In this document: positions 6,594 through 49,794 of the stretch, piece after piece
How positions within the stretch are numbered: position 1 is the stretch's first letter
Layout of the letters: every line of letters starts with the position of its first letter
Origin: Phycisphaerales bacterium
GTDB taxonomy: Bacteria > Planctomycetota > Phycisphaerae > Phycisphaerales > UBA1924
NCBI GenBank assembly: GCA_029260345.1
Contig: JAJDDK010000002.1
Span: forward strand, 124,001 to 188,000
Length of the DNA stretch: 64,000 nt
Direction of reading: 5' to 3'
The notes under the pieces: model-generated
The model's input: only the letters and a program-made list of their open reading frames with translations
The model's database searches: none
What the model was told of the DNA's origin: nothing
Program-made: the position numbers and the translations under genes

Positions 6594-6657
6594 CGCCTCC
6601 CCACGTCGGAACGGGGTTCTCCCGGGAGGGCGTGGGCCGCTGCAGGGGCGGCGACAA

Positions 6658-6729
6658 GCGGGTGTAGCTCAGTGGTAGAGCGTCACGTTGCCAACGTGAA
6701 TGTCGTCGGTTCGAATCCGATCACCCGCT
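6658..6729 (+). tRNA. tRNA-Gly (GCC anticodon)
   Basis: A full cloverleaf is readable: acceptor stem GCGGGTG/CACCCGC, D-arm GCTC..GAGC, anticodon stem TCACG/CGTGA with loop TTGCCAA (anticodon GCC), T-arm GTCGG-TTCGAAT-CCGAT and discriminator T. CCA is not encoded. The 3' half was supplied by the adjacent integrated element: the leftover host 3' half at 51219-51260 has a different T-stem (GGGCG/CGCCT). The present gene is therefore a chimera that still pairs throughout. Confidence 0.95.
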
Positions 6730-6737
6730 TTCGAAGA

Positions 6738-17943: not shown

Positions 17944-18135
17944 ATGTCCTCCGAGCCAGAGCAGGTCATGACGATCGACGAGCTCTCGGCCTACCTCAAG
18001 GTCGCGAAGTCGACACTCTACAAGCTCGCCCAAGAGGGCAAAGTGCCCGGGCAGAAGGTCGGAAAGCACTGGCGGTTCAGCAGGCCCGCGATAGATGAAT
18101 GGCTGAGATCTCAGCCAAAGGAGTCGACAGGATGA
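17944..18135 (+). CDS. Small helix-turn-helix protein, excisionase/MerR-like (HTH_17 type)
   Basis: The 63-aa product is a single winged-helix unit: MTIDELSAYLKVAKSTLYKLAQEGKVP then KVGKHWRFSRPAIDEWL. This is the common small DNA-binding fold annotated as excisionase or helix_turn_helix_17. Its stop overlaps the ATG of the DUF499 gene (ATGA at 18132), so it is translated with the defence operon and most likely regulates it. A role as the element's recombination directionality factor is possible, but it lies far from the integrase. Confidence 0.8.
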   Translation: MSSEPEQVMTIDELSAYLKVAKSTLYKLAQEGKVPGQKVGKHWRFSRPAIDEWLRSQPKESTG

Positions 18136-21386: not shown

Positions 21387-22009
21387 CCACAATCACGGCA
21401 CCACCCATGACCAAGCGAACCAACTCCACCAAGCCCAAAATCGACCTCAACGACTACTACAAACGGAAGGTCGAACCGCATCTGCCGCGGATGCCGTGGG
21501 TCCTCCGGGTGACGGACCACAAGAAGCGTCCCTCCCCCGTCTTCGTGATCAAGTACCGCAAGCCGCTCGATGAAGACAGCAAGGAGACGCGGCTCGTTGA
21601 ACGCGGCGTGCTCTACGGCGACCAACTCCGTCGTTGCCTGCCCGGTATCCAGCAGGTGCTCGCCCGCGTGCGAGACGAGGACGACAAGCACCTCGACCTG
21701 CACCAGTTCGTCCAGGGCAAGACCATCGCGTTTCGCGGCAACCTGCCGCTCGACGAGGGCTCTGGCTCCAAGCTCGCCTTGCTGTTCCGTCTTCAAGAGC
21801 GCGTGAAGGACCTCGACCGCGTCGAGCTGATGGCTCGCCGGATCGACAACTTCACGGACGAGGAAGCGAGCTACTGGCTCAGTCGCATCCTGCACTTCAG
21901 CAGAGCCACGAATCGTTGGGCCATCGCCGGAATGCGGATCATGCTCGGCGGCCTGCCGGGCGACCCCGCCATCGGCGAGATGCTCAAGGACTTTGATACC
22001 CGAGATTGA
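21383..22009 (+). CDS. Small partner protein of the DUF499/DUF1156 defence operon
   Basis: The 208-aa product begins with a lysine/asparagine-rich stretch and has a compact alpha/beta body (PWVLRVTDHKKRPSPVFVIKY, in part) and a helical end. I cannot name its family with confidence; short conserved proteins of this size regularly sit between the ATPase and the methylase in such operons. The ATG at 21383 overlaps the ATPase stop (ATGA). Its stop at 22007-22009 is 24 bases before the methylase start. The function is unknown; an adaptor in the complex is an inference from position. Confidence 0.6.
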   Translation: MTTITAPPMTKRTNSTKPKIDLNDYYKRKVEPHLPRMPWVLRVTDHKKRPSPVFVIKYRKPLDEDSKETRLVERGVLYGDQLRRCLPGIQQVLARVRDEDDKHLDLHQFVQGKTIAFRGNLPLDEGSGSKLALLFRLQERVKDLDRVELMARRIDNFTDEEASYWLSRILHFSRATNRWAIAGMRIMLGGLPGDPAIGEMLKDFDTRD

Positions 22010-22032
22010 CCCACCCGCCACGAGAGGTCGCC

Positions 22033-25000: not shown

Positions 25001-25269
25001 TTCGCAGAGGCTCCAACCTCCGGCTGGCGTTGCCCGATGAGCGGAACGCCCGACGCATCGCTTCGCCGCAGCACGAGTGGGATGTGCTTCAGGGCATGAT
25101 TTTGAAGTACCGCGAGGGTGATGTCCCGGTCGCCCGTGCCTACCTCACCGAGCACGCAGACGGCGAGCAGACGAAGATCCTCGACCTGCTCGGCGTGTGG
25201 ACGAACGAGATGGACGACGAGGACCTCCGCAAGGAGGGCGAGACCATGCTCTTTGGTCTGGGAGCGTGA
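22033..25269 (+). CDS. DUF1156 DNA adenine methyltransferase with zinc ribbons
   Basis: The 1078-aa product opens with the DUF1156 motif LIEAGFPCHQVGAETKRE and HRLHVWWARRPL, followed by SAM-binding motif I LDPTAGGGSIPFEAL near residue 222. Two zinc-ribbon pairs CPHCGG and CPHCHQ lie near residues 336 and 402, and the catalytic NDPPYYNNVMYSE near residue 675. The NDPPYY form indicates amino-group methylation, most likely N6-adenine, probably to mark self DNA for the neighbouring helicase-nuclease. The ATG at 22033 has gagagg upstream. Base composition changes inside the gene: about 22.1-24.6 kb is visibly poorer in GC than the flanking DNA and the last 220 codons, suggesting a recombined recognition segment. 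Confidence 0.88.
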   Translation: MTTTMTDNLRLIEAGFPCHQVGAETKRERDTGKAPPTHRLHVWWARRPLTPSRAAILGATLPAGADIDEFLRALGIAKPVAHIPGGGHWVLANETLLKRVKWDEYGNAGTLEVDATVKRHFQKEVEQRAGLQSALVAISSAIPSVADAPVVRFWQEEGAPFRVGELDEGTHLQVEVVTAQPDEFKELLNLAGQSGVRVPNLYGYDRAHTSSPPITDKPITVLDPTAGGGSIPFEALRLGHNVIANELNPVGTVIQYATLDFPRRFGHVLRQHIQRYGEAMLASASDELDHLFARSGPLPSDELEALQLHLGSRHSSLEDQFACEDVTTYLYCRQVSCPHCGGQVPLLNSFWLSKEDGDKWAVQLKIRNKTQVDIAPYRIKASLTKQQAADLDAGTVNKGRGTCPHCHQVVDGDEIKAQSRGDSAHGSMSDRIYCVVSARFEPKLKRDGDVDRYASGERKGEIKTKKLRFFRSPVARDLDAVRQAEQTLQSRWDDFERHDLIPTELIPAGHKTGDEGGAGSGTDKPLKLGTEKWYQMFTPRQLLGHLTLMDALRKLKPQIIAQLGDDQGRAVITYLQFAIDKGIDYNSRQTRWIYQRGQVSGTFGRHDFSFKWTFGEMVFSGPNSGASWGLNQIVDAYSGIAELLRQAPKDTQLSIINGSGARMGQVADGSVDLVVNDPPYYNNVMYSELADYFYVWQKRSLSDLYPGLLDAYLTDKQSEAVANPHRDGSADAAKLQYEQLMREMYTECHRVTKPDGRMVLMFTHKSQSGWETLTQALIDSGWAISATYPVDSEFGKSMHIMENASAESSIFIVCRKRESVGSEPGLWKAFGGQGVQQRIVDEVQVGLGEFEALDLRPVDTMVASYGRALRVLSEKWPVLDGDEPVSPIRALNEASRVVAQHHIQKLTQGRLKVEDLTPEAAMAVTLYGICGLQPLRYDEVLNIARSLGIAIESRTAGYDATEKSIGYATEAAGRRASRNDDIVGYHAPMVRRGSNLRLALPDERNARRIASPQHEWDVLQGMILKYREGDVPVARAYLTEHADGEQTKILDLLGVWTNEMDDEDLRKEGETMLFGLGA

Positions 25270-25275
25270 TGACCG

Positions 25276-28200
25276 ATGAGCGATTCCCTTCCCGAACCCG
25301 ACCTCAAGCAACAGGAGTGGCGCCGCCGGTACGCGACGTCGAGCCTTGATGAGTCCGGCGAGGGACGAGACCTGCTTCGTTCGTTCTACGTTCCGGCTCT
25401 GCTCCGAAGCGTCCGCTACGACCGCGTCGCGGGATACTTCCGCTCTTCGGCACTCGCGGCGGCCTCGCGAGGATTCTCGGCGCTGCTGGAACGGGGCGGA
25501 AGCGTTCGGCTGATCGCAGGGTGCGACCTCGCCCCCCACGATGTCCAGGCCGTCCTCGACGGCAACACGCACCGGCTCGAAGACCACCTGTCCGACGAAC
25601 TCGACAAGCTCGACGAGACGCCGGAGCGTGTCCGACGGGGCGTCGAGTTGCTCGCCTACATGGTGGCCAAGGGCAAGCTCGACATCCAGGTCGCCTTCCG
25701 ACGGCACGCGGAGACGGGCGAACCGATCACACTCGACAACTCTGCCGACGGATACGTCCACGAGAAATGGGGCATCCTGACAGACGGCTTCGACCAGAAG
25801 CTGACGTTCTCCGGCTCCATGAACGAGTCGGCGGCGGCACTGGTCCGCAACGCCGAGAACATCAACATCCTGATGAGTTGGAGCGGGCAGTCTGACCTGG
25901 AAGAGATCGCCCGCATGGAGCGTGACTTCGCGGCGCTCTGGGAAGACCGGCACCCGAACTTCGTCGTCCGGCCGATTCCCAATGCCATCCGCGAGAAGCT
26001 CTTGCAGATCAGCGAGCGAGTCATCGTGCCGAAGGAGCTCGACGGCGAGGAAGCGTTCGACGAGCCAGCCGTTGCTCCATCTCCAGAAGAGTGGCTTCGC
26101 TTCGCGGTCATCAAGCACGCCCCGAAGATGGTCGGTGGTGAGACGGTCGGCATCTACACCGCTCCCGTGACGCCATGGCCGCACCAGGAGATCGTCGCCC
26201 GTCGCTTGGTCGACACCTATCCGTATGGCTACATGCTGTGTGATGAGGTCGGGCTGGGTAAGACGATTGAGAACGGCCTTGCGTTCCGCGCCCTCTGGCT
26301 CTCCGGGCGTGCCCGGCGGATTCTGATCTGTCCACCTGCAAGTCTCGTGACCCAGTGGCAGCGTGAGATGGCGGACAAGTTTCTGATGCCGTTTGGCATC
26401 GGACGGTCGAATAGCCGCGGCGCGAAGATCAGCTACCTCCTGCCCACCGAAAGCGAGGAAGAACGGCCGAACCTGTTCGACCGTGACCTGCTGACCGTCT
26501 CAACCGGATTGCTCCAACGCGAAGAACGGCTCCGCCAGCTCAAAGCCGCCGACCAGTTCGACATCGCCCTGGTAGATGAGGCTCATTTCGCGAGGCGTCA
26601 GAACTCCCGCAACGGTCTCGACGAAGAGCCTTCGTTCGGCAAGCTGTATCGCGCTCTCGACAACGGATTGCGTCACCAGTCGCGAGCACTCTGGCTTGCG
26701 ACCGCCACCCCGATGCAGCTCAGTGCCGTTGAGGCCTATGACCTCGCCGACCTGGTCGGACGGCTCGGCTGCTTCGCATCCGAGCAGAGTCTTGTGGGCG
26801 TGTACTACACCATCCTCGGCAATCTCGCGCGCGGTCACTCTCCGAGTGGGGACGAACAGAAGACCCTGCACATCATCGTTCGGCGAACGCAGTACGAAGA
26901 CCCGGCTCTCTGGGAACGGGTCGACGAGTGGCTGCTCCAGAAAGACCCGCAGCTCCAGGTCGTCTTCACGCAATGGATGGAGACCGAGGTCTGGCCGGCT
27001 CGTCGGGACGACGAACGCCTGCTCATGCGTGTGCTGTTTGCGATTTCACCGCTTCACCGCGTGATGCTCCGGCACACTCGCGGGCTCTTGGAGCAGTATC
27101 GCAAGCACAACCTGCTCACCGCCAATCTTGCCAAGCGACGTGTCCGGCCGATTCCCCCTGAGCTGAAGTTTCGGCCAGACGAATCGGACGCATACGCGGC
27201 ACTGGCGGCGTACTGCGGCGAACTCCAGGCACAGATCGGCCAGAACATCAGCGGACCGATGCGGAGCAGCCTCGGCTTCTATCTCTCGCTCCTTCAGCAG
27301 CGCTTCGCCTCGTCGGCGGTCGCGATCTGCAAGACACTCGAACGCCGACGCGAACGAGTATCGGAGACCATCGCGATTCTGGACCGGACGGGGCTGGACT
27401 CGACGAGTGACCTCGAAGAACTCCGCTCAGACACAAGCCGGGACGAATGGGAAACGGAAGAACGAGAGCTCGAAGAACTCATCAAAGCCACGCTTCGTGG
27501 CCGCACGCGAGCGGACCTCGTCTGGGAAGAGAAGCGATTGGATGAGCTTCTTCCGGTGTACCAGACACTCGCCGCCCGACGCCCTACCAAGACAGACGTG
27601 CTGCTCCGTGTGATGGCGGACCGGCAGCGACCAAGTGACCACGACCGGTACAGACAGACAGTCGTATTCACTCGGTACAGCGACACCCTCGACCACCTCG
27701 TCGAGACTTTCAAGGCGTCTGCTCCTGACATGCGACTCGGCACGTTCTCGGGAAGTGGCGGTGCCTATTGGGATGCGGACAATCGCCAGTGGAGGCATTT
27801 GGAGAAGAACCGCGACCAGATCAAGCACCTGTTCCTTCAGGGCGAGATCGACCTGCTGCTCTGCACTGACGCCGCGGCTGAAGGACTCAACCTCCAGACC
27901 GCCGACCTGCTCGTGAACTACGACCTGCCGTGGAACCCGATGAAGGTCGAGCAGCGGATCGGCCGCATCGACCGTATCGGGCAACGCTTCAACCAGATCG
28001 AAGTCCTCAACCTCGCAACGGTTGGCTCTGTTGAAGAAACCATCTATGGGCGACTCTGGGAGCGACTCAGTAGTGCCGCCGGAGTTGTTGGCTCACAGCA
28101 GTTCTCGATTCTCCCAATCGGAGAAGAGGACTTCGCCGCCTTGGCACGCGGGGACATCACGCACGAAGAGCTCGAACAGCAAGCCATGCGTCAGCTCGAA

Positions 28201-29226
28201 GAGCACAACCGGCAGATCCGCCAGCTCGAGATTCCACCGGAGGACCTCTACCACATCTTCAACAAGGAGCTCAGGTCGTACGCGGACGAGGGCCGTGTCG
28301 TCACACTTGAGGACATCCAGCACGCACTCATGGACTCGCAATACCTGCAAGCCACTGGCAGTCAGGTCCACGAGACCAACGGCCAACGCTGGGTTGAGAT
28401 CAAAAGCGCCGCGTCGTGGGGCGGGCTGTACACACGCTTCGCGATGACTGCGAAGCAAGATCTCTATGAACTCGGCCTCAAGGACTCCAAACTCCCACTC
28501 CGCTTCGCGAGCTACGGTGAACCCGGGTTCGATGAGCTGGTCGACGAGCTCACGGGAATTCAGCACCGTCCACAGGGAGTCCACGTGCTCCGAGCGGAAC
28601 GGTCGGTGGGTGACCAGACCTGGGAGAAGGTCGCCATCGTCGCGATGTTGAAGACCCCAGACGGCAAAGCCACCGCCACTCGCATCGACGGGTATCAGCA
28701 GGTGAGAGACGCAGAGCTCGACACGGAAGCAATCGTGCCGAAAGAGGCGATCGACCTTCACCAGCAGTGGCTCGAAGACCGCTTGGACGAGGAGGTACGT
28801 GCGTTCACTGAGCGTCGGCAGATGCTCGAACGGCACTCAGAGATCGGTAACGCGAACAAAGCCTTCATGTACCTCCTGGCGATCGGCATGCTCCGCTCAG
28901 CGAAACGACGGCCGAACGTGAACGACCCGGAGAGAGTCAACCAAGTCGTCAACGAAGCACGAGAGATGGCCGAGGAAGATCGCCTCATCATCTTTGACAT
29001 GGAACTGGACAAGATGACCGACCGCCAGAAGCGGGAGCTTGTCGTGCACCTGGGAGCCGAGCTCCACGCTGGTCAGTGGCGGTCTACGCCGCACTTTCGC
29101 CGGGCGGCCATGCACATCGTCCATCGAGAAGTGGCGGTACTCAAACGCAATCAGCGGCAGGACGCCACCACTACGAGACTGATTGCTCAGCTCGGCCGGA
29201 AGGCCGAGTCGCTCCTCGACGGATGA
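25276..29226 (+). CDS. SNF2-type helicase with N-terminal phospholipase D-like nuclease domain
   Basis: The 1316-aa product joins two activities. Near residues 160-190 the sequence HEKWGIL..TFSGSMNES is a PLD-type HxK...GSxN signature. The helicase core follows: motif I DEVGLGKTIENG near 322, DEAH box VDEAHFARR near 432, motif III LATATPMQL and motif VI EQRIGRIDRIGQ near 892. A helical tail of about 350 residues ends the protein. It is the likely effector and translocase of the operon, pairing DNA cleavage with unwinding. The gene starts 7 bases after the methylase stop. Its 3' end overlaps the convergent replication-type gene by 56 bases. Confidence 0.88.
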   Translation: MSDSLPEPDLKQQEWRRRYATSSLDESGEGRDLLRSFYVPALLRSVRYDRVAGYFRSSALAAASRGFSALLERGGSVRLIAGCDLAPHDVQAVLDGNTHRLEDHLSDELDKLDETPERVRRGVELLAYMVAKGKLDIQVAFRRHAETGEPITLDNSADGYVHEKWGILTDGFDQKLTFSGSMNESAAALVRNAENINILMSWSGQSDLEEIARMERDFAALWEDRHPNFVVRPIPNAIREKLLQISERVIVPKELDGEEAFDEPAVAPSPEEWLRFAVIKHAPKMVGGETVGIYTAPVTPWPHQEIVARRLVDTYPYGYMLCDEVGLGKTIENGLAFRALWLSGRARRILICPPASLVTQWQREMADKFLMPFGIGRSNSRGAKISYLLPTESEEERPNLFDRDLLTVSTGLLQREERLRQLKAADQFDIALVDEAHFARRQNSRNGLDEEPSFGKLYRALDNGLRHQSRALWLATATPMQLSAVEAYDLADLVGRLGCFASEQSLVGVYYTILGNLARGHSPSGDEQKTLHIIVRRTQYEDPALWERVDEWLLQKDPQLQVVFTQWMETEVWPARRDDERLLMRVLFAISPLHRVMLRHTRGLLEQYRKHNLLTANLAKRRVRPIPPELKFRPDESDAYAALAAYCGELQAQIGQNISGPMRSSLGFYLSLLQQRFASSAVAICKTLERRRERVSETIAILDRTGLDSTSDLEELRSDTSRDEWETEERELEELIKATLRGRTRADLVWEEKRLDELLPVYQTLAARRPTKTDVLLRVMADRQRPSDHDRYRQTVVFTRYSDTLDHLVETFKASAPDMRLGTFSGSGGAYWDADNRQWRHLEKNRDQIKHLFLQGEIDLLLCTDAAAEGLNLQTADLLVNYDLPWNPMKVEQRIGRIDRIGQRFNQIEVLNLATVGSVEETIYGRLWERLSSAAGVVGSQQFSILPIGEEDFAALARGDITHEELEQQAMRQLEEHNRQIRQLEIPPEDLYHIFNKELRSYADEGRVVTLEDIQHALMDSQYLQATGSQVHETNGQRWVEIKSAASWGGLYTRFAMTAKQDLYELGLKDSKLPLRFASYGEPGFDELVDELTGIQHRPQGVHVLRAERSVGDQTWEKVAIVAMLKTPDGKATATRIDGYQQVRDAELDTEAIVPKEAIDLHQQWLEDRLDEEVRAFTERRQMLERHSEIGNANKAFMYLLAIGMLRSAKRRPNVNDPERVNQVVNEAREMAEEDRLIIFDMELDKMTDRQKRELVVHLGAELHAGQWRSTPHFRRAAMHIVHREVAVLKRNQRQDATTTRLIAQLGRKAESLLDG

Positions 29227-35416: not shown

Positions 35417-38245
35417 ATGCTCCGGATGATGCAGCAATACAGTGCAGCGAGCGTTCGACGCTATTTTTCCGAGGCCCTCAATCACGACGACTACTACCGT
35501 CACGGCACCGAGACCAAAGGCCTTTGGCGGGGCGTCGGGGCCGAACTGCTCGGTCTGACCGGCAGGGTCGAGCGTGACGAGTTCAGCCATCTCTCCGAGA
35601 ACAGACACCCCTTCGCAGAGACCTCACTGACGCCGCGGACCAAGGTCGGCCGCCGCGTTGGGTACGACTTCAACTTCAACGCTCCGAAATCCGTCTCGGT
35701 TGTCTACGCCGTCACTCGCGACGAGGACATCCTCTGGGCCTTCCGCAAGTCGGTCTGGGACACGATGCGGGAGATAGAGACCGAGATGATGACCCGTGTG
35801 CGTCGGGACGGGGCGAACCACGACCGTGTAACCGGCACCATGCTCTGGGCCGAGTACCTGCACCTGACGACGCGACCAATCGACGGCGTCCCGGACCCGC
35901 ACGTGCACATGCACTGCTTCGCGATGAACTGCACGTACGACCAAGAGGAGCAGCGGTGGAAGGCCGGGCAGTTCGGCGGCATCAACGCCCAGATGCCGAC
36001 ATTCCAGGCAGCCTATCACTCACGTCTCGCGTCGAATCTGGTCGAGAAGGGCTACCCCGTTCAGCGGACGAAGCACGCCTTCGAGATCGTGGGTGTACCC
36101 GAGTCCGCGATGCAGACGTGCTCGCGCCGCAGTGAGCACATCGAGTCGCTCGCGGCCGACCTTGGCTATGAGGACAAGAACAAGGCCCGCCTCGGAGCAC
36201 GGACCCGAGAGCGTAAGCAGGACATCCATTCTATTGATGACCTGCACTCGACTTGGTCGGAGCGGCTGACCCCTGACGAGGTCTCCACCGTCCACTCCCT
36301 CAAGGGTGCAGAACCTCGCGAGCACACCGCGGAGATCGTGGAGCAACAGGACGTGCTCGACGCTCTGCGCAATGAGGAATGGGACCGGAAAGCCGAGCAG
36401 CAAAACGGGAAAGCCGAAGACCGAGCCGCCACCGAGGAGCCTCATCGTCGGTGGGGGCCGCACCTGCTCGTTTCACTTTCCGCCAACAACGCGGTCAAGG
36501 CGGCCGCCAACACCCTCTTTGAGCGTGACGCCGTCGTGACAGAGTCTCGGCTCCGCGAGGTGGCGATGAAGTACAGCTACGGCAAGGCGACGCCGCAGCA
36601 GGTGTACGATTCGATCAAGAAGCGTCCCGAGCTGATTGAGCGAACGTTCGAGGGACGCACGTACTACACCACCACTGAGGCCATCAAGGAGGAGCGGTTC
36701 CTTGTCGACTTCGCCCGGAATGGCCGGGGGGCACGCCGCTCACTCGGCCTATTCACGCTGAGCATGGCGGGTTTCCGGCTTGACCGGCGTGAACGCGAAG
36801 TGCTCGGCGAACTGCTCAGTTCCAAGGACCGCGTGACGCTCTTCAAGCAGACCGGCCCGACACGGCGTCCGGAACTCTCCCGGGCCGCCATGACCGCCGT
36901 ACAGGAAGCTGGGCACAAGCTGCTGGTTGTCGCACCGACCAGCGTCTCGGCCCGACAGGCCGAACAGGACTACAAGCTCGAAAAAGTGTTAACGGCCCAG
37001 CAGGTCATCCACGATGAGCACCTGCACGAGAAGCTCAAGGGCCCGATGCCGAGCAGGCTTATCTGGGTCGAAGATGCCGGACGCCTCGGTACTCGCTCCA
37101 TCGCGGGCCTCGCACGCGTTGCCAAGTCGACGGGGTGCCGGCTGCTGCTCTCCGGCGACAACGCCCGGAGCCGCACGCACGAGCGCGGCGACCCTTTCCG
37201 CCTGCTTCGCGACGAGGCCGGCATGTCAACGGTCGAGCACATCGTGATGAAGGACAAGCAGAGCAGGCTGGAACAGGTCGTGCACTCGCTGCAGTGGTCC
37301 GCCCCATGGACTGTGCCCAACGAACTCAAGGAGCTCGGCGCATTCCAGCTCTCTCAGGAGGAATCGCTCATCGAGGACGCCGCCCGCTTCTACACGGAGG
37401 AGCACTCACATGGCCGCAAGGTCGTGCTCGTCACCCCGGGTTACTCAACGCTCGGCCAGCTAACCGGCGCTGTGCGTGAGAATCTCCGCGATGCCGGGGT
37501 GCTGACAGGACGCGAACGCTCGGTCGTGCAGCTGCTCAGTCTCGGGTGGGACGACCGCGAGAAGTCCAAGAAGGACAACTATCACCGTGGCATGGTGATC
37601 GACTTTCACATGCCGAGCCGCGGATTCCGGTCGGGCGACCGTGCTCGTGTGCTCGGCGTTGACTCGTTCGGTGGGGTCTGGGTCCTCGGCCGCTTCAAGA
37701 CACCGGAACGGCTCAACCTCCGGCACGCTAACCGCTTCACCGTCTCGAAGGTGCACCGCGGACGGCTCGCCGTCGGGGACCGAATCCGGCTCAATCGCTA
37801 CACCAAGTCCGCGCTCGGCCGTCCCCTTCGGGCGGGCAGCGTGGTGACGGTGAAGGCATTCAACCCGCGGGGCGACATCGTCGTCGATGGCATGCGGATT
37901 CTGCCCAGGAACTTTGGTCACTTTGAGTACGACTATGCGACCACCGCACACCGGCTCCACGGCCGGCGCGCCGACTCGGTTGGCTTCGTCGCGCGTGCGG
38001 GTGACTACGCGGGCGCGGAGGCGAAAGACGTCGCCGCCGCCGGCGAGGCCAGCCGGAAGTCTTTCCGAGTCTTCGTTGACGACGAGGAGGGCTTCACGAA
38101 CCTCATGGAGCACGAACGACCCACGCACTCCGCCATCGACGTCGAGGACCACATCGACGAGCTCGACCTCCAGCAAGAGGACTACGAGATGATGTTCCGG
38201 CGTGCCCAACCGGACATCGACCAGGGAATCCGTCATGGGCGATAG
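35417..38245 (+). CDS. MobF-family conjugative relaxase (TrwC/TraI type), helicase part degenerate
   Basis: The 942-aa product starts with the TrwC relaxase domain: tyrosines in QYSAASVRRYF and DDYYRHG, then GAELLGLTG, FNAPKSVSVVYA and the metal-binding triad PDPHVHMHCF near residue 160. It should nick one strand at oriT and pilot it. The C-terminal half resembles the MobF helicase, but the Walker A site reads VTLFKQTGPTRRPE near residue 472 instead of GxAGTGKT, and Walker B reads WVEDAGR, so ATP hydrolysis is doubtful. The next gene overlaps its end by 11 bases. Confidence 0.85.
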   Translation: MLRMMQQYSAASVRRYFSEALNHDDYYRHGTETKGLWRGVGAELLGLTGRVERDEFSHLSENRHPFAETSLTPRTKVGRRVGYDFNFNAPKSVSVVYAVTRDEDILWAFRKSVWDTMREIETEMMTRVRRDGANHDRVTGTMLWAEYLHLTTRPIDGVPDPHVHMHCFAMNCTYDQEEQRWKAGQFGGINAQMPTFQAAYHSRLASNLVEKGYPVQRTKHAFEIVGVPESAMQTCSRRSEHIESLAADLGYEDKNKARLGARTRERKQDIHSIDDLHSTWSERLTPDEVSTVHSLKGAEPREHTAEIVEQQDVLDALRNEEWDRKAEQQNGKAEDRAATEEPHRRWGPHLLVSLSANNAVKAAANTLFERDAVVTESRLREVAMKYSYGKATPQQVYDSIKKRPELIERTFEGRTYYTTTEAIKEERFLVDFARNGRGARRSLGLFTLSMAGFRLDRREREVLGELLSSKDRVTLFKQTGPTRRPELSRAAMTAVQEAGHKLLVVAPTSVSARQAEQDYKLEKVLTAQQVIHDEHLHEKLKGPMPSRLIWVEDAGRLGTRSIAGLARVAKSTGCRLLLSGDNARSRTHERGDPFRLLRDEAGMSTVEHIVMKDKQSRLEQVVHSLQWSAPWTVPNELKELGAFQLSQEESLIEDAARFYTEEHSHGRKVVLVTPGYSTLGQLTGAVRENLRDAGVLTGRERSVVQLLSLGWDDREKSKKDNYHRGMVIDFHMPSRGFRSGDRARVLGVDSFGGVWVLGRFKTPERLNLRHANRFTVSKVHRGRLAVGDRIRLNRYTKSALGRPLRAGSVVTVKAFNPRGDIVVDGMRILPRNFGHFEYDYATTAHRLHGRRADSVGFVARAGDYAGAEAKDVAAAGEASRKSFRVFVDDEEGFTNLMEHERPTHSAIDVEDHIDELDLQQEDYEMMFRRAQPDIDQGIRHGR

Positions 38246-38758: not shown

Positions 38759-40291
38759 ATGGACCCCTCCAAACCCCATCCGAACGGGAGTGTGAACGGC
38801 CGCGGCAAGCGGACGGAGAGCTTTCCGCTGAGCACGCCGCTCGTACGGCTGACGAGCCGCGACACCCTCACCCTCAGGGACGTCTTTGAGGGCGTCCACA
38901 TCTTTGGCGGGCTTGGCTCGGGCAAGACCTCCGGCAGCGGGCAAACCATCGCCCACGCCTTTCTCCGGTCGGGCTTTGGCGGGCTGGTGCTGACCGCCAA
39001 GCCGGGAGAGACTGAAACCTGGAAGCGGTACGCGAAGGCGACCGGCCGGGAGCTCATCTTATTCGGGCCGGACCACCCCCACCGGTTCAACTTCATCGAC
39101 TACGAGCTCCGACGCCCCGGCCGCGGAGGAGGCATTGCGAGCAATCTAGTCTCCCTGTTCGAGGAGGTCCTCGAAGTCCACACGCCGGGCAAGGTCCTCG
39201 GTGGCGACCCGTACTGGCGAGAGGCCCGCGCCCAGCTCCTCCGCAACTCGATCGAGCTGGTTCGGCTCGGAGCTGACAAGCTGACCTTCGACGACGTAGT
39301 TGATGTCATCCGTTCGGCTCCCCGGCGACCGGAGGACCGGACCGATACCAAGTGGAAGAGCGAGTCGCGATGCTACCGCTTGCTCCGGTCCGCCCTGGAC
39401 CGGGTGGAAGTGTCGGGCAACGAGCGGGACCAGCGTGACCTAAAAGTCGTCACGGACTACTTCTTCGAGGAGTTCGCCCCACTCGACCCCGAGCCGCGGT
39501 CCAGCGTCGTCAGCATGGTCGGAGCGCTCACTGACATGCTCGTGCGTGGCGATGTGCGGGAGCTGTTCCTGACCAAGAGCACGCTCGTCCCGGACATCAC
39601 CGAGAACGGGGCGGTCATCGTCTTGGACATGCCGGTGCAGGAGTACCGCGAGGCGGGTCGCTTCGTGCAGGTACTCTTCAAGACTGTCTTCCAGCGGATG
39701 GTCGAGCGACGACAGAACCGGACGGATACCGCCCGGCCGCTCTTCCTGTGGGCCGATGAGTCGCAACTCTTCTCAACGCACAGCGACACCACGTTTCAGA
39801 CGACCGCGCGCGAGTCCCGCATCGCCACGGTGTACCTCACCCAGAATCTCCCGAACTACTACGACGCGTTCGGCTCCGACTCTGGGGGCCGCGACCGTAC
39901 CAAGAAACTGCTCGGTGCCTTCGGGATCAAGATCTTCCACGCAAATGGCGACCTGGAGACGAACAAGTACGCGGAACAGCTGTTCGGACAAGAGCTCACG
40001 TGGCGGGAATCGGAGTCGGCCGGGTCGTCCGAGAGCGCCGGGTCGTCTTACAGCAGTTCCTCCAAGTCGTCGTCCTCCAGCCGGAATCAGGCCATCGACT
40101 TCACTGTTCGCGCGAAACGGTTCACGCAGATGCTCCGCGGCGGTCCGCACCGAGGATGGACCGAGGCGTACGCATTCCGGGCGGGCGAACCGTGGAAGAC
40201 CACCAACGACAACCTCCTCTACGTGAAGTTCCCGCAGACGGTGCAGCGGTATCCCCGTGATGGAGGTCGGTCCGGCGGAGGGCACCGATGA
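38759..40291 (+). CDS. Type IV coupling protein (VirD4/TraD-like ATPase)
   Basis: The 510-aa product has a Walker A near residue 50 (HIFGGLGSGKTSGSG), the VirD4-type follow-up GLVLTAKPGETETWKRYA, and a Walker B LFLWADESQLFST near residue 325, then TARESRIATVYLTQNLPNYY. It should hand the relaxase-DNA complex to a secretion channel. Unlike most coupling proteins it has no N-terminal membrane helices; the next gene, joined by an ATGA overlap, encodes a membrane protein that may anchor it. A serine-rich run of about 30 residues sits near position 420-445. Confidence 0.82.
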   Translation: MDPSKPHPNGSVNGRGKRTESFPLSTPLVRLTSRDTLTLRDVFEGVHIFGGLGSGKTSGSGQTIAHAFLRSGFGGLVLTAKPGETETWKRYAKATGRELILFGPDHPHRFNFIDYELRRPGRGGGIASNLVSLFEEVLEVHTPGKVLGGDPYWREARAQLLRNSIELVRLGADKLTFDDVVDVIRSAPRRPEDRTDTKWKSESRCYRLLRSALDRVEVSGNERDQRDLKVVTDYFFEEFAPLDPEPRSSVVSMVGALTDMLVRGDVRELFLTKSTLVPDITENGAVIVLDMPVQEYREAGRFVQVLFKTVFQRMVERRQNRTDTARPLFLWADESQLFSTHSDTTFQTTARESRIATVYLTQNLPNYYDAFGSDSGGRDRTKKLLGAFGIKIFHANGDLETNKYAEQLFGQELTWRESESAGSSESAGSSYSSSSKSSSSSRNQAIDFTVRAKRFTQMLRGGPHRGWTEAYAFRAGEPWKTTNDNLLYVKFPQTVQRYPRDGGRSGGGHR

Positions 40292-43717: not shown

Positions 43718-44410
43718 TTATGCACGCCGGGTCTTCGGATGTGACACAACGGGTTGCGGCCACGTGGGCGACCCATCCGGCCTGGGCTCAAATGGCCGAA
43801 CTACCTTGCGATTTGTCTCGATGACGTCCTTGTGGAGTGGGCGGAGCCCTGCGGTCTGCCTGGTGCGGTTCACCGCCCGGAACACCGCGAAGAGCTGACG
43901 AACAACCGGGGCATACGGCTCGAAGCGGAGGCGTCGAAACTCCTCGGCCATCTCCTTTACGGTGGCCCGCTTCGCCAGGTCGCACATGTAGCTCTTCAGC
44001 CACCGGTACTCGTTCTGATGGATGCGGACCGACGCGTGGTAGGTGCCGTTCACGCTCCGGCGATACCCGATGCTGTATCCGGCGAACGCGATCGGTTCGC
44101 GACGGACATCGCGGATCACAGACGCCTCCCGCTTGAAGAAGAGATGCTCGCCCGCGTTGGCGACAAGCACCCAGAACGACGCGTACCGCAGGTAGTGAAC
44201 GTTCCCACCGCCCGAGGCTTTTCGTCGGGCTCGCTGCCACCGCGACTTGGCGACGTCGTACTGAGCGATGAGCTTCGCATCGATGTCCTCGGGCAGGCGA
44301 CCGGGTGGCACATGACCAGCGACGTAGAAGAAGTAGCCGTGCCGGATGTACTGCACAGTCAGTTGCTGAACGAATCCCGCCACGCTCGTGGCGACGTATT
44401 GGTAGCTCAT
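43718..44410 (-). CDS. Element protein of unknown function next to the structured non-coding tract
   Basis: The 230-aa product has a good ribosome binding site (gaggaggga, seven bases before the ATG at 44410). It is basic and rich in aromatic residues, with an N-terminal half of predicted beta segments (HGYFFYVAGHVPPGRLPE, YLRYASFWVLVANAGEHLFF) and a helical C-terminal half with many Arg and Lys. It is probably a nucleic-acid-binding protein by composition. It is the first gene downstream of the 1.3-kb hairpin-rich tract, on the same strand and separated from it by a terminator-like hairpin. Confidence 0.6.
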   Translation of the reverse strand: MSYQYVATSVAGFVQQLTVQYIRHGYFFYVAGHVPPGRLPEDIDAKLIAQYDVAKSRWQRARRKASGGGNVHYLRYASFWVLVANAGEHLFFKREASVIRDVRREPIAFAGYSIGYRRSVNGTYHASVRIHQNEYRWLKSYMCDLAKRATVKEMAEEFRRLRFEPYAPVVRQLFAVFRAVNRTRQTAGLRPLHKDVIETNRKVVRPFEPRPDGSPTWPQPVVSHPKTRRA

Positions 44411-44443: not shown

Positions 44444-44490
44444 AAAAGAGCGTTGTTTGTGGTCCCTTCAGCCCAACAGGCACAACGCTC
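44444..44490 (-). terminator. Hairpin plus T-run at the end of the structured tract
   Basis: A perfect 9-bp stem (gagcgttgt at 44448-44456 with acaacgctc at 44482-44490) with a 25-base loop is followed on the minus strand by TTTT. It separates the non-coding tract from the 230-aa gene. Confidence 0.6.
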
Positions 44491-45772
44491 AAAGCCCTCG
44501 CAAAACCTTCCGGGAATCAAGCGGCCGCCCGAGACCCGTACAACCTTCCGCCGCATACCAGCACCGAGCGAAACAACTCGCCGTGCTGCGGCTGAATAAC
44601 CCCAAGAGTGTGAGCAGGGTGCTGCACCAGCTCCCTACTCCAGGTTCCATGTATTGGTGTTGCCCAATCATGGTCGTTGCGGTGCACCAGACACTGTGTC
44701 CAAGCACCACATCTTCGGAACACCGACCGGCAGAAGCGGGAGGGTTGCCGTTCCCGGCACATTCCTCCCGCTCGCCGACCGCATGGATACCCGTTCATCA
44801 CACACAACTGTGCGATGAACCGGCACCCGTACACAGATTCAACGCGTCGCCGCTTTCGTCGTCGCTGATCGCATCCGCTCCGGGTACCACCCCGGTGCGT
44901 TTCGATGCCCCAGTGAACGGGCCGCCACTGCCTTGCAGCGGACACCGCTCCGGGAGGCTCTCGCCGCCCAGACTTTCTACTCGCGGCACACTCCCAGTCT
45001 CAGGCGTTTGAAACACCAAGCAGACCTTGCCTGGCACCGGCTCATCACGCCGGAAGCCCGAGACCTTCCCCTGTTAGCCATGCTCGTCACCGAGACGGTC
45101 ACGTCGCTCGGCCCTCTGTCGTCCGACTCGGGATCCCTCCCGCGTCGGCGTTTGCACACGAGCTGATGCTCGTGTGATTTCAGCCAGCAGAACCCAGAAG
45201 CTCCGGCTTACCCATCGACAGACGACTTCGTTACGCGGTTCGGCACCGTCTCCGTCTCGATTGACCGCCAAGCCCTCGCGGGCCTCTCATGGTTGAGCTC
45301 TTCACCGCCGGTCGTTTCGACCGGTCGCCGGGTGTGGTCATCACCCGGTCGCCCGCATCGCTGCGGACGAGCTCCCCACGGCGGCACGGGTTGAACGGGG
45401 TACGAGACCCCGAACCCCCCGCGACGGATTACGCGGCGTTGTGGCCCGATGGCCCGAACGCCGCCTCACCGATTCGAACATGACGGCTCGCAGGAATACC
45501 CGCGAGTTTGTCCAGGTCGCCCCGGCTCCCGAGGCGACTCGCTCATCGGATAGAAGCTGCGGATTGTTCTCGTGGTTGAACCGTCGAGGCTTTACTCGCA
45601 GCAGCCTCCGTCGAACCGGACAAGCGTGTCTCCACGCATCCGGCTCTACGCGTCTCCGGCATCCACAAATCTGTGGACAGGGTGATGAGCCCTGCTTCCC
45701 TTCGCTCGGCTGGTGAGGCCGTGCTCTCGGGCTGTCGGAGTCTGTGTGCGGGTGCCGAGGCGGTCGGTGACC
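44444..45772 (-). ncRNA. Candidate giant structured RNA, about 1.3 kb
   Basis: No credible gene lies between 44411 and 45878. The tract is instead a chain of perfect stem-loops, for example 45155-45163/45168-45176 (9 bp), 44736-44743/44764-44771 (8 bp), 45308-45324 and 45328-45348 (7 bp each), 45351-45368, 45516-45538, 45662-45677 and 44793-44820. Read on the minus strand, four loops are GNRA tetraloops: GCGA at 45276-45279 and 45358-45361, GAGA at 45629-45632 and GGAA at 44751-44754. A promoter-like pair precedes the tract (45779-45806) and a hairpin plus T-run ends it (44444-44490). Size and style fit the class of large ornate RNAs such as GOLLD or ROOL, but I cannot assign a family. An origin of transfer or replication is the alternative. 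Confidence 0.55.
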
Positions 45773-45878: not shown

Positions 45879-47927
45879 TCAGGCATGAATCAGCACGCTG
45901 GGAGAGAACGGCGGTACCCGCTCTTGTGTACTGACTGTGACTCCTGCTGAAGACGAGTAAACCATCGTCGCCATGCCCCCCTCATCGCCTGCGCGACTTC
46001 GCAGCCTTCGAGCCAAGAGTTTTGCTAGAGGCTCGTCTTCCACCGCGCAGATTACCTGACGCCCAGTCCTTCTGACTGCTGCCAATACCTCAATCAGATG
46101 GAGAGCCCGATAGTCGTCGATATGCTGCACCGGATCGTCGAGGATCAGCGCATTCACCTTGGGCCATTCGGCAGACACGTGAAGAGACAGGAGGAACGCA
46201 AGACCCGCAGCTCGACGCTGGCCGCTACTGAATACAAAGTTCGGATTGAGTCCATCGCCAATCTCGAAGCTAAGCATCCGACGCACGTCACCACGAAGGC
46301 GATATCGCATCTCGCGCCAATCACAGTGAGGCCGCAGTCGTTGGTACAAATCAAGCAGCAGAGGTTCTAGCTCCGCAAGTCTCTCATCAATCAGCTCGCC
46401 CTTCATTCGCCGGATTGTGTCGTACGCTGCCTTTGCCTTGGCGCGACTCTCCGTTGCACGCTGCAACTGCTTCTCAGCTTGAGCCAGATCCTTCTTGACA
46501 CCATTCAGTTCGCGCTGGAGCTCCACTACCCGCCCACGCATGACCGAAGCCCCGACAACCGCGAGGCTCCGTTCAAGCTTTGCCGCGACCTCGCGCAGCT
46601 GAGTGACTTGTTGTCGTACGCGTTCGCGACCCGCCTGACGATCATCGCCCACATCTACGCCGTGACTATTGCAGATCGTCTGTGCCTCTTGAAACCACTC
46701 TTGAGTCTGCCGCGCCGCGGCCTCTTGCTTCCTTGCATGATCCTCCGCCACTCGCAGTCCATCTTGACACTCCGCGATCTGCGTTTGCAGAGCTGCTCGC
46801 TCCGCGACAAGCCGCGTCAAGTCAGAATTCCGCTGACGGAGTTCGTCTGCGAGCAGCTTGAGACGCGTTTGAAACTCCTCCGACTCAAGCTCTGACCGAC
46901 ACAGTGGACATGCCCCGTCGCGCAGGCCGAGATGTGCACCGTGCTCGTGCAGCATGTTCAGAGATACGGTCTCAGGACTATCCACCCCTGTGGCGGAAAT
47001 CTGAGCATCGCACTTTCGCCGCTTGACTTCGAGTTCGGCCAGTGACTGTTTGAGAGATGCAACTTGAACAGCTGGGGCTGCGTCGGGCTCACTCGACGTG
47101 CCGACACTTCGACCCGCATGCAATTCTTGCGAGCGTTCTAGGAGATCAGCCGCCTGAGACAGCTGTGATACTGCGAGCCTGATTTCCGAAAGGCGGGTCT
47201 CCGCAACACTAACACGAGCCGCATCATTGTCTTCTGTTGTTGGTGCCAGCACCGACAGCTGCGACCTCGCACTTTCGAGCGCCTCGCTCTCGGGTGTGTC
47301 AGACCTGAGTTCGCTTAGTCTCGCCGTCAGATCGCCTACACGCTGCCGCGCATTCCGGTATGAAGCATCCGCCTTCTCTTCGACAGACTTTGTGCGAGCG
47401 ACGAGCTCCTTTGCTCTTGACTCGAATCGCGTCAACGCGTCCGTGCCTAGAACGGCGCGCACAAGATCAAACCGATCGGTTTCCTTGAGGTCAACACTGA
47501 GCTTTGTGATCGCCTCATCGCGAAGCATCATGACTTGTGCCAATCGCACAAGCGGGCTATCCAACTCGCCCGGGCCATTACACACTCGATCGACGACCTC
47601 GGCCTCGGAGGCGCCGACTAGTCCGTTTGGTGTTCGCCGAATGACGAAGCTCTCCCCTTGGTCATCAACGAGCTCAAGCGATACATACTGCTCCTTTGGC
47701 CTTCCGTGTCCGCGCCACCAGACGTAATCGCCAAGCCCTTCACCCTTCTCCTTGTGCTCGCCAGAACCACGCACAGAACCTGTAAGCGCGAATTCAACTG
47801 CATCGCAGACCGTACTCTTGCCAGATCCATTGCGACCCGACAGCACAAGAAAGCCACGTGGCACGCGCAGCTTCACCTTCTCGCGAGCACCGCGAAAGCC
47901 CTCAAACTCAACGACTGCCAGTCTCAC
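45879..47927 (-). CDS. SbcC/Rad50-like ABC ATPase of a SIR2 three-component system
   Basis: The 682-aa product has the SMC-like layout: Walker A SGRNGSGKSTVCDAV near residue 30, two long coiled coils with a zinc-hook CPLC near residue 350, ABC signature FSSGQRRAAGLAFLL near 592 and Walker B LILDDPVQHIDDYR near 622. At 682 residues it is shorter than SbcC. It is the third gene of a tightly overlapping operon after SIR2 and a small middle protein. In ABC three-component conflict systems the ATPase is thought to sense foreign DNA and release the effector; that role is inferred here. Confidence 0.85.
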   Translation of the reverse strand: MRLAVVEFEGFRGAREKVKLRVPRGFLVLSGRNGSGKSTVCDAVEFALTGSVRGSGEHKEKGEGLGDYVWWRGHGRPKEQYVSLELVDDQGESFVIRRTPNGLVGASEAEVVDRVCNGPGELDSPLVRLAQVMMLRDEAITKLSVDLKETDRFDLVRAVLGTDALTRFESRAKELVARTKSVEEKADASYRNARQRVGDLTARLSELRSDTPESEALESARSQLSVLAPTTEDNDAARVSVAETRLSEIRLAVSQLSQAADLLERSQELHAGRSVGTSSEPDAAPAVQVASLKQSLAELEVKRRKCDAQISATGVDSPETVSLNMLHEHGAHLGLRDGACPLCRSELESEEFQTRLKLLADELRQRNSDLTRLVAERAALQTQIAECQDGLRVAEDHARKQEAAARQTQEWFQEAQTICNSHGVDVGDDRQAGRERVRQQVTQLREVAAKLERSLAVVGASVMRGRVVELQRELNGVKKDLAQAEKQLQRATESRAKAKAAYDTIRRMKGELIDERLAELEPLLLDLYQRLRPHCDWREMRYRLRGDVRRMLSFEIGDGLNPNFVFSSGQRRAAGLAFLLSLHVSAEWPKVNALILDDPVQHIDDYRALHLIEVLAAVRRTGRQVICAVEDEPLAKLLARRLRSRAGDEGGMATMVYSSSAGVTVSTQERVPPFSPSVLIHA

Positions 47928-48454
47928 GAGCTCTCCATCAACTGTGAAGCGACCGTCCCAAGGTCCAGATCAAGAAGTAGGCCGTGGATAGGACTGCCTT
48001 CAGGCCCAAGGCGCTTTCGGAGATCTTGGAGGAGGTTGTCGGTGGAACTCAGATGAAGGTGTCGGAGCGGAAGCAACGGGGCTAGCACAGCTTCGGCGTC
48101 TTCTGGCGTAGTCACGCCGACACCAACAATCTTCCGTGTGCCTCGAAAGTCCTCCTCAATCGCGTTCAGCTTCGACCTGTCCACACCGTCCGCGCTATCT
48201 CTGGTCAGGAACACTGAATAGCAATTCCATGCTTTAGTGGGGGCGTCTGAGAATAGAGATCCATTCTCTCGAAGAAACATGTCCTGAAGCTGTTCCCATG
48301 ACTGCTGGAGTTCCGCCACTGTTTGAAGCACGTACACAACACCGAGGACACTCTCGTCCTCGAAGTACGCAGCAGGAGTCTCGCTTCGCGGAACGAAAAC
48401 GCGATAGTCCGCTGCAGCAAGCACGGACTCAACATCTTGGAGGAGTTGATTCAT
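47924..48454 (-). CDS. Middle component of the SIR2-ABC three-component system
   Basis: The 176-aa product resembles the middle component 1 type of ABC three-component systems, with a central TKAWNCYSVFLTRD segment, then IEEDFRGTRKIVGVG and the PLLPLRHL end. It overlaps both neighbours by four bases (SIR2 stop upstream, ATPase start downstream), so stoichiometric expression is expected. It should bridge ATPase and effector. The assignment rests on motif memory and gene order, not on a search. Confidence 0.65.
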   Translation of the reverse strand: MNQLLQDVESVLAAADYRVFVPRSETPAAYFEDESVLGVVYVLQTVAELQQSWEQLQDMFLRENGSLFSDAPTKAWNCYSVFLTRDSADGVDRSKLNAIEEDFRGTRKIVGVGVTTPEDAEAVLAPLLPLRHLHLSSTDNLLQDLRKRLGPEGSPIHGLLLDLDLGTVASQLMESS

Positions 48455-49794
48455 GCAGGATCCCTCAGCTCAGCCACGAGTTGTTCATGCGTCTCCCAGT
48501 GCGGAGTGGTACCTGGGCGAACAATGGTCGGTGCCGCATCACCTCGTACTACGTCGACCGCGGCATAGTCAGCACTGGCACCCACACAAACCATCCGATC
48601 CACTGGTATTGGGGACGGTGGCTCCTCTGCGTAGCGTTTCCTCGCCGCGCTGAGGACTTCTCCACTACCCGACAGCAATCGCACTGTCTTGCCGCAATAC
48701 TCGTAGTGAGTTCCGTTGAAGCTCGCGCCTTTGGCCTGGAGACGAGCGTGAATGGCGACGAGGAGCTGACGCGATGTCTCCGGATCGATCTGGCGGACTG
48801 GGGCGTGACTCAATGTCCCAGTCAGGACACGCCGCAGCCCGTATAACGTAGCGTTGTCGCTGTGCTCACCGACCTCGCCAAGTGCCACTCCGAAAACTGC
48901 TTCGTGAGTTTCTGCGGCATCGCGGACAAGCTTTCCTATGGACACTTTGCCAAGAGCTGTGGCGAAGGCATCTAGGAAATCTGCACCTGACTGTCGAACA
49001 TGCTGGAAGTTGATGTCTTGTTCGTGGGCCCACTTCCACAGCCCCGGAGCTTTTCGTTCAAGCGCGTCGGCGTCAGATGGGTCAACCACAACCAAGCTGC
49101 GAGGCGTAGTGGCTGTGAGCGACTCCGCCAGTACTTCACTCAAGTACACCCAATCCGACCAAAACCCCACGACTAGCAAATCACGATCTTGCACGTTTGT
49201 GGAGAGCCACGCTCGGAATCGGTCCGTTCGTAGTTTGAGGTCGGCGTGCTCCAGCTGGTCCTTGCACCAGATGGTTCGCAGCCGGTCACTTCCTCCATAG
49301 CAGCAGCCATGTACCTTCAAATACGGTGAGTGGTCATAATGGGCGGCCAGATCCGCCGGCTCCCTCATCGCACGGAAATCAGGCTCGCCAATCGCGGTCG
49401 CGGCGAGCTCGACAAACAAGTCGTAGTTAGTGGTGACGCATCCCTCAAGGGCTCGACAAGCCAGCAGATCTGCAATCGCGAGGTGTCCGGTATTGAACTC
49501 CCGGAGTGGGCCGTGAAAGTACGACCATGGGATCAACTTTTCGATGAACTCGCGGAACCTGGTGTTGCTCCAGAACCACTCGGCGATCGTTTCGATATCG
49601 GCATCGGTGTCTAGCGGCATCGCCTCGCCTACGAGCTTCAGGTAACTGCCTCGGCAGGCTTCGGCGACATCCCAGGCTGATGGAGTTCGAGTTGGAGGCG
49701 CCATGGACAAACCGGCGCCGGCAAGAACCATGAGCTTGCCTCCTGCGACCGATTCCAAGAGCAGTCTCTTTAGAGCGTCATCCACTTCGAGCAC
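48451..49794 (-). CDS. SIR2-domain effector
   Basis: The 447-aa product has the sirtuin-type NAD-binding signature LMVLAGAGLSMAPP near residue 22, CVTTNYDLFVELAA near 118 and YLKVHGC near 158, with GFWSDW around residue 205. SIR2 domains in defence operons usually deplete NAD+ once triggered by a phage. The C-terminal 190 residues are unassigned and may receive the signal from the middle component. It is the first gene of the operon, 50 bases after the integrase stop and on the same strand. The start has no strong ribosome binding site. Confidence 0.85.
   Translation of the reverse strand: MLEVDDALKRLLLESVAGGKLMVLAGAGLSMAPPTRTPSAWDVAEACRGSYLKLVGEAMPLDTDADIETIAEWFWSNTRFREFIEKLIPWSYFHGPLREFNTGHLAIADLLACRALEGCVTTNYDLFVELAATAIGEPDFRAMREPADLAAHYDHSPYLKVHGCCYGGSDRLRTIWCKDQLEHADLKLRTDRFRAWLSTNVQDRDLLVVGFWSDWVYLSEVLAESLTATTPRSLVVVDPSDADALERKAPGLWKWAHEQDINFQHVRQSGADFLDAFATALGKVSIGKLVRDAAETHEAVFGVALGEVGEHSDNATLYGLRRVLTGTLSHAPVRQIDPETSRQLLVAIHARLQAKGASFNGTHYEYCGKTVRLLSGSGEVLSAARKRYAEEPPSPIPVDRMVCVGASADYAAVDVVRGDAAPTIVRPGTTPHWETHEQLVAELRDPA

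Follow-up and report, generated by a model that had tools for sequence, protein, structure and literature searches.

A circularly permuted group II ribozyme and its AcpG-type neighbor, a predicted maturase-like protein, on a planctomycete mobile element

In a normal group II intron domains 5 and 6 (D5 and D6) lie at the 3′ end, and in canonical introns the maturase gene sits in domain 4 (D4), after D3. In LtrA-type introns the maturase binds with high affinity to a D4 hairpin, and the reverse transcriptase (RT)-like domain of Prp8 is a catalytically dead group II RT relative that serves a group II-like RNA core. A rare self-splicing class of circularly permuted (CP) group II ribozymes, originally T-large RNA, was described by Roth et al. 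in 2021 (PMC8637638). In the parts of that report drawn on here, the class has the layout D5-D6-D1-D2-D3-D4, a linker usually shorter than 100 nt between reversed splice sites and a P2-D2 loop-loop pairing unique to it; a protein without known relatives, AcpG, was found near CP RNAs, and intron-encoded protein genes were never seen within or near them (PMC8637638). Here we analyze a 64,000-nt stretch of Phycisphaerales bacterium contig JAJDDK010000002.1 (the window), in which the tract at 44444-45772, followed by a gene for a 230-aa protein, carries an RNA that we assign to this class from its sequence.

A first-pass annotation of the window had described the tract as hairpin-dense and non-coding with a folded RNA on the minus strand, and both points were borne out. 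The tract has dense hairpins and, with both strands read and the open frames listed, no supported gene. A 991-nt piece of the minus strand folded with a z score of −7.8, which 0 of 20 shuffles equaled. The plus strand gave a z score of −7.5, so folding energy by itself cannot pick the strand; the minus strand is correct because of the homologues and of a match to RF00029, the Rfam family of group II intron D5/D6. With all Rfam families compared, RF00029 was the only one at gathering score within the tract, matching 45648-45545 on the minus strand with 49.8 bits (E 3.9e-8; gathering cut-off 40 bits), and GOLLD, ROOL and HEARO gave no match at gathering score or at E values up to 5. D5-D6 precede the D1 core (45393-45254, also minus), and the canonical order of D1 to D6 with flanking exons was not found in the tract. 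A canonical intron with its D4 open frame upstream of D5 was considered and rejected, as the gene there (45879-47927) encodes an SMC/RecN-like ATPase. The conserved structured RNA spans about 45.73-44.45 kb on the minus strand, and its order D5-D6-linker-D1 to D4 places it in the published CP group II class (PMC8637638). We conclude, on sequence grounds, that it is a CP group II ribozyme.

Read 5′ to 3′ on the minus strand, the RNA opens with a stem-loop at 45731-45698, read from the sequence as the probable P2 of the class, with the loop CUCACCA at 45717-45711. D5, the catalytic hairpin with its AGC triad, bulge and GAGA tetraloop, occupies 45646-45613 in the RF00029 alignment. D6 (45612-45545), delimited by the Rfam match and by conservation in homologues and paired by inspection, ends in UAUCCGAU, and its branch point is a bulged A (45551) that lies 7 nt (position −7) from the 3′ splice site; in the alignments the motif UUCUAUCCGAU, in which the branch A of D6 is followed by an AY 3′ splice site, is seen in the window and in homologues. 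A 22-nt linker (45544-45523), the predicted exon circle, lies between the reversed splice sites, preceded directly by CCGAU and followed directly by GGGCGAC; a linker of the same length with the same bounding pattern occurs at loci L038 and L039. The 5′ splice site sequence, GGGCGACC, begins with GGGCGAC at 45522, and from there D1 to D3 extend to 44848 in a multi-homologue alignment in which the boundaries between domains are approximate, with the D2 loop GGGGUGGUACCC at 44893-44882. Two of the four GNRA tetraloops named in the first-pass annotation have a place in this structure, the GAGA being that of D5 and one GCGA capping a covarying D1 hairpin. The promoter-like pair TTGGCG-16-TATAAG is present as letters, but a sigma-70 scan returned 0 sites against 0.2 expected. 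A search by eye only for pairing between exon-binding site 1 and intron-binding site 1 (EBS1-IBS1) found none that was consistent.

Homologues were reached through the downstream protein, in genomes of relatives, in eight plasmid records and at 42 loci in named assemblies, the labels of the last being largely Planctomycetota and Verrucomicrobia, plus a few Acidobacteria and others. Five plasmid loci were examined, three more of the eight records being other Leptolyngbya boryana strains. In planctomycete K2D, Leptolyngbya, Calothrix and Planococcus the RNA was found, by nhmmer or by the covariance model R1 described below, in the unannotated 1.3-1.7 kb before the gene. A strict splice-site pattern gave a plausible pair at 19 of the 42 loci, with linkers of 12-51 nt in 17 and of 103 and 107 nt in two; an extra match in L067 (172 nt) looks false, and 22 loci had no match. 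Comparison by eye also found similar splice-site landmarks and a 35-nt linker in Thermus thermophilus pTT8, which carries one of the two CP loci that Roth et al. give for T. thermophilus HB8 (PMC8637638). Some of the loci deserve mention in their own right. In the window's own genome the same layout occurs a second time, with a CP group II RNA accompanied by a separate AcpG (G000:C8:188538-190348; L002, L015), the protein being 42% identical to that of the window (P0001). The Planococcus plasmid pA26H1 (L022; 5525 bp, four annotated genes) carries a CP RNA (R1 E 8e-10) and an AcpG-like protein and would make a small natural model. The Calothrix plasmid locus L021 has two R1 matches of equal score (354-491 and 2495-2632), only one of which directly precedes acpG. 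At about 3225-4590 of L018 there is a decayed copy, in which a deletion has apparently joined the CP RNA to what is left of acpG.

Covariation in homologues, which the first-pass annotation had looked to as a sign of a folded RNA, was evident in a 140-nt D1 segment (45254-45393 in the window) aligned across 37 loci. This set, A5, holds sequences with an anchor like AGCUCAAC, with L022 and the near-duplicates L039 and L041 removed; loci lacking the anchor, among them L011, L020, L021, L071, L074, L076, L079 and several short ones, are left out of it. RNAalifold predicted 34 pairs, 26 of which had at least one compensatory change on both sides. Paired cells made up 94.3% compared with a shuffled mean of 69.6%, and 288 cells had changed on both sides compared with a shuffled mean of 90. 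On each of five covariation measures 0 of 500 shuffles reached the observed value, the shuffles ignoring relatedness. When the structures were slid by 1-3 columns pairing fell to 30-41%, a control that would be generous by itself since the structure was derived from the same sequences. The compensatory base changes show that the RNA fold is under selection. The covariance model R1 built from this segment scores the window, one of its training sequences, at 140.8 bits, and it also finds L020, L021, L022, L074, L076 and L079, which are absent from A5. No match was found in 10 of the 18 sources scanned (L011, L023, L046, L050, L051, L058, L071, L080, L081 and L082).

The P2-D2 loop-loop pairing could be formed in 13 sequences, with 3-6 bp in each and compensatory variants, the loops having been chosen by eye with the hypothesis in mind. 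The window has 4 bp. CACCA/UGGUG occurs in 5 of the 13, and the variants include GCUA/UAGC (L017), UUACCA/UGGUAA (L037), UACCA/UGGUA (L021) and GCCA/UGGC (L016), with just 3 bp in L019 and L020. Matched loops averaged 4.5 bp and mismatched loops 4.1, and 46 of 10000 permutations did equally well, which is modest evidence for the pairing.

The first-pass annotation had further pointed to the basic, possibly RNA-binding 230-aa protein beside the RNA as part of the picture, and this was borne out. P0001, encoded at 43718-44410 on the minus strand, matched no Pfam or NCBIfam family. A profile-profile comparison with the presumed TTHC007 family of Thermus gave a probability of 79.3% (E 1.5e-5), collinear over residues 22-183, and because of this match P0001 is probably a distant AcpG. 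Judging from size and position, we take P0002 of pTT8 to be TTHC007; BLAST of P0001 against it returned nothing. In a literature search that covered neither most subscription papers nor bioRxiv, Roth et al. was the sole source for TTHC007 and for the term "CP group II ribozyme", and AcpG was mentioned together with group II in two papers, one of which deals with dental caries. The protein set A6 used below consists of P0001 and 28 of the 42 locus proteins, the other 14 being partial, frameshifted, poorly bounded or duplicate, and alignment A11 holds 22 of those 28.

The RNA lies upstream of the protein gene on the same strand at 36 of the 42 protein loci; in four of the other six no more than 825 nt of sequence is available upstream. 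Searches of 392 genomes of the phylum gave hits in 8 with the protein profile (E ≤ 1e-5) and in 9 with the RNA model (E ≤ 1e-6), the 9 including all 8; both search models had been built from loci that include members of the 392-genome set. The contig of the ninth RNA stops 109 nt beyond it, so a neighboring gene cannot be seen there. The RNA set was gathered via the protein, and other kinds of RNA that occur without it could therefore be missed. The seed profile for the upstream RNA came from seven loci, including the window and L014, which is apparently the same contig as L043; L040, L041 and L043 are apparently the same contigs as those also taken from G016 and G021. Three queries found no AcpG in viral contigs.

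We then consider the fold of the protein as predicted by AlphaFold (AF2). The model of the window protein has a predicted local distance difference test (pLDDT) score of 89.4, and in VIA-align against the 998 highest Foldseek PDB chains its best match was 8h2h_D (Z 9.7, 194 residues aligned, 4.1 Å), followed by 8t2r_D (Z 9.5; 180, 3.5 Å) and 6me0_C (Z 9.4; 180, 3.7 Å). The first 15 rows were group II, group II-like (G2L4), diversity-generating retroelement (DGR) and DRT9 RTs, and the 50 best rows of the 998 comprised RTs, viral RNA polymerases, AbiA and spliceosome chains, with Prp8 (4i43_B) at Z 7.8 and 5.7 Å. Against viral models the window model gave mostly weak RNA-dependent RNA polymerase rows. 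A second model, of L072 from an Acidobacteria assembly, reached a pLDDT of 93.4 from an alignment that excludes the window protein and its nearest relatives; its best VIA-align match was again 8h2h_D (Z 10.2, 182 of 200 residues aligned, 3.7 Å), and of the first six Foldseek rows all but one, a retron RT, were group II RT chains (E 2e-3 to 3e-2). Both predicted models thus have an RT palm and thumb/X fold. In the profile alignment with group II RTs, a greedy extension spanning residues 5-186 with low confidence in its N-terminal part, YLRY falls on VRYADD and FAGYSIG on FLGYSF, and the thumb is matched by the last helices, which is the same register as that of the fold; motif names here follow general usage for RTs. 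None of the 29 members of A6 has Asp at positions 78-79, where the YADD aspartates align, and five have Asp at 77. Y73, R75 and Y112 are invariant in all 29, and position 33, the motif A site in a hand alignment, is variable, so the catalytic Asp of motif A is not kept. No curated RT or maturase family model matched P0001 (Pfam and NCBIfam) or the 29-member set (Pfam). The models would make the window protein a predicted dead, shortened maturase and not a member of the RT family. This predicted fold for the AcpG family is what is new here, the RNA class itself being already known.

Several results weigh against joining the RNA and a maturase-like protein in this way. Best Z scores of 7-8 are common in VIA-align. 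Foldseek with the window model was marginal, with retron Eco8 first (E 9e-4, TM 0.25), then 8t2r_D (E 2.6e-3, probability 1.00, TM 0.47) and then flavivirus polymerases, and the two models are not independent because their alignments share 22 sequences. By hhalign, the comparison with 69 group II RTs was weak (score 31.8, E 0.0011, probability 20.8%), as was that of a broader AcpG set (E 0.0035, probability 9.4%); the C-terminal half of the protein alone reached E 1.3e-4 and a probability of 54%. The first, small RT sets gave nothing significant (E 0.17, 0.18 and 0.039), and neither the N-terminal part alone (E 0.04) nor global mode (probability 0.1%) lent support. The 29-member set gave only stray single-member matches (best E 0.023 in Pfam and 0.034 in PHROGs) and no RT family. 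With regard to linkage, the AcpG homologues at L050 and L051 (5001-5603; 52% identity) had no RNA match in the 5 kb upstream, the Gluconobacter plasmid locus has only about 450 nt before the gene and no R1 or nhmmer match, and some genomes with CP RNAs are given as lacking acpG in the text of Roth et al. drawn on here (PMC8637638). R1 finds no match to the Thermus RNA, and the Thermus acpG is divergent from its RNA and off the D4 position, unlike the window gene. On the other side, the score of 31.8 was reached by none of 200 column shuffles (up to 26.5), by none of 200 block shuffles (up to 28.6) and not by the reversed profile (16.0). Of 79 RT loci from viral contigs, 64 were taken further and 63 kept. 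At L050 and L051 the RNA has possibly been lost or relocated.

The position of the gene is also that of a maturase gene. acpG follows D3 on the strand of the RNA, with a hairpin between them at 44490-44448 (GAGCGUUGU, a 25-nt loop of the form GCC...AA, then ACAACGCUC; 9-bp stem) that lies 37 nt upstream of the acpG start and is a probable D4. The first-pass annotation had noted a 9-bp hairpin plus TTTT after the tract; the 9-bp stem is there, but the terminator scan did not pick it, its sole site being at 45033 with 1.1 expected. When the best hairpin in the 100 nt preceding the gene start was taken at each of 43 loci, its loop began with GCC at 18, compared with 3 of 170 control windows from the same loci, the 18 not being independent because the loci are related. 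The feature is probably better read as a D4-like hairpin than as a terminator, and since the D4 hairpin of LtrA-type introns binds the maturase, it would by analogy be a natural candidate for AcpG binding. Among the GCC-loop hairpins the stem letters differ, and several are followed by a short U-rich UUUGA stretch.

Taken together, we put at roughly 0.85 the probability that the locus encodes a CP group II ribozyme with an adjoining AcpG-type, maturase-like cofactor that lacks RT activity. Domain order, homology, covariation, co-occurrence, synteny and the missing Asp at the YADD positions are shown by the analysis, and the maturase fold is predicted. From here on we infer splicing in cells, binding and the role of the protein. 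The minus-strand transcript of the tract would act as a CP group II ribozyme, in which, by analogy with the chemistry of the class in Roth et al., the bulged A of D6 (45551) would attack the downstream 5′ splice site (before GGGCGAC at 45522), and the freed 3′ end would then attack the upstream 3′ splice site (after 45545), with a circular RNA of 22 nt and a T-shaped branched RNA as products. The AcpG-type protein, in which the models retain the thumb/X helices together with part of the RT palm and from which the N-terminal fingers, motif 4 and the catalytic aspartates have been lost, may bind the CP RNA, perhaps at the D4-like hairpin, and could, like a maturase but with no reverse transcription, aid its folding at the magnesium levels of the cell. 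We further consider it likely, with somewhat less confidence, that AcpG represents a group II maturase, domesticated and catalytically dead, that was kept at the D4 position upon permutation of the intron.

The locus lies on a mobile element, as the first-pass annotation had proposed for a large structured RNA beside a putative RNA-binding protein, and that broader proposal is supported. On the plus strand are genes for a MobF relaxase of the TrwC/TraI type (35417-38245; Pfam and NCBIfam) and a VirD4-type coupling protein (38759-40291; Pfam, with the NCBIfam match below cut-off), and the element also has a ParA-type ATPase, an ArdC-like antirestriction protein and an IS110-type transposase. 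The RNA is immediately preceded, also on the minus strand, by an operon for a SIR2-like protein, an ABC-3C middle component (below the Pfam cut-off) and an SMC-like ATPase (45879-49794), probably a defence system. DUF499, DUF1156 DNA methylase and helicase-PLD genes (18099-29226, plus) resemble a defence island, and a tRNA-Gly gene (6657-6730, plus) might mark an integration (att) site. A search of the window's own genome for TIGR04416, the group II RT family, found nothing, so the assembly (96% complete) shows no canonical maturase.

Other explanations fit some of these observations. The RNA could be a CP group II ribozyme beside a protein unrelated to maturases, one that serves plasmid or element maintenance and has a palm-like alpha/beta fold by chance or through very old ancestry. 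The weak sequence score, the lack of a Pfam match, the protein without RNA at L050 and L051 and the plasmid and mobile-element locations would all suit such a protein. We regard this as unlikely, given that two models match group II maturases collinearly over nearly their full length, that the profile alignment keeps the same register with 0 of 400 shuffles as good, and that the gene is closely linked, in fixed orientation, to a group II-type RNA. Much less probable is a functionless, scrambled and decaying group II intron remnant. Compensatory changes across several phyla in 37 sequences, the conservation of the splice sites and of the branch point, and an acpG free of stops at 7 of 8 places in one search and 9 of 9 in the 392-genome search speak for a maintained unit, although the absence of TIGR04416 matches in G000, the truncated L018 and the stop in protein loci L064 and L067 are what decay would leave.

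Two readings that the first-pass annotation had raised are now the least credible. Length, structure and the mobile element had suggested a GOLLD-, ROOL- or HEARO-like giant RNA or a new ornate class, a proposal we give up as very nearly untenable, because these families were missing at both gathering and relaxed thresholds, RF00029 was matched and the domain order is that of CP ribozymes. An origin of transfer or replication of the element, for which the genes for the MobF relaxase and coupling protein some 4-9 kb away might be cited, is just as improbable: the base-pair covariation is typical of a folded RNA, group II core motifs are present, and the RNA-acpG unit is also found on plasmids without a typed relaxase.

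If AcpG is such a dead maturase, CP loci would be two-part ribonucleoproteins that have given up retrotransposition and retained RNA catalysis with a dead-RT cofactor, and they would parallel, in bacteria, the pairing of the group II core with Prp8 in the spliceosome. They may have originated from tandem intron copies that kept D5-D6-exons-D1-D2-D3-ORF (open reading frame). If AcpG is a shrunken maturase, CP RNAs would have retained their protein, at many loci at its old position, without RT activity. AcpG would thereby gain a first likely role, testable as the Mg2+ need of CP splicing, and the loci would provide a small bacterial model for the step from an intron with a dead RT to a non-mobile splicing machine, as is assumed for the spliceosome and Prp8.

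Compared with group II maturases and RTs (8h2h_D, 6me0_C, 6ar3_A), the window protein shares the predicted palm and thumb/X fold, the RY and F-GY motifs in register and a gene position after D3, as for a D4 gene; it differs in its 230 aa as against about 430-600 and in lacking the fingers, motif 4, the YADD Asp and a family-model match. Unlike AcpG, Prp8 is a huge eukaryotic protein that belongs to a trans-acting machine; the likeness is one of kind and no proof of special kinship. AcpG/TTHC007 of T. thermophilus and the window protein are both found beside a CP RNA, are of similar size and have collinear profiles, without BLAST similarity. Set against the CP group II ribozymes in the parts of Roth et al. 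used here (PMC8637638), the window has the same order D5-D6-linker-D1-D2-D3-D4 with a short linker, a 5′ splice site (GGGCGA) that resembles GUGYG and an AY 3′ site in reversed order, a bulged A in D6, P2-D2 loop pairing and an AcpG neighbor, and its relatives likewise occur on plasmids. Its predicted circle is 22 nt, compared with the 32, 35, 50 and 86 nt quoted there, and the hosts, going by their labels, are Planctomycetota, Verrucomicrobiota, Acidobacteria and Cyanobacteriota among others, compared with Deinococcus-Thermus, Firmicutes and Proteobacteria. What sets the 36 loci with an RNA match apart from those loci is that the protein lies downstream on the same strand, often after a GCC-loop hairpin.
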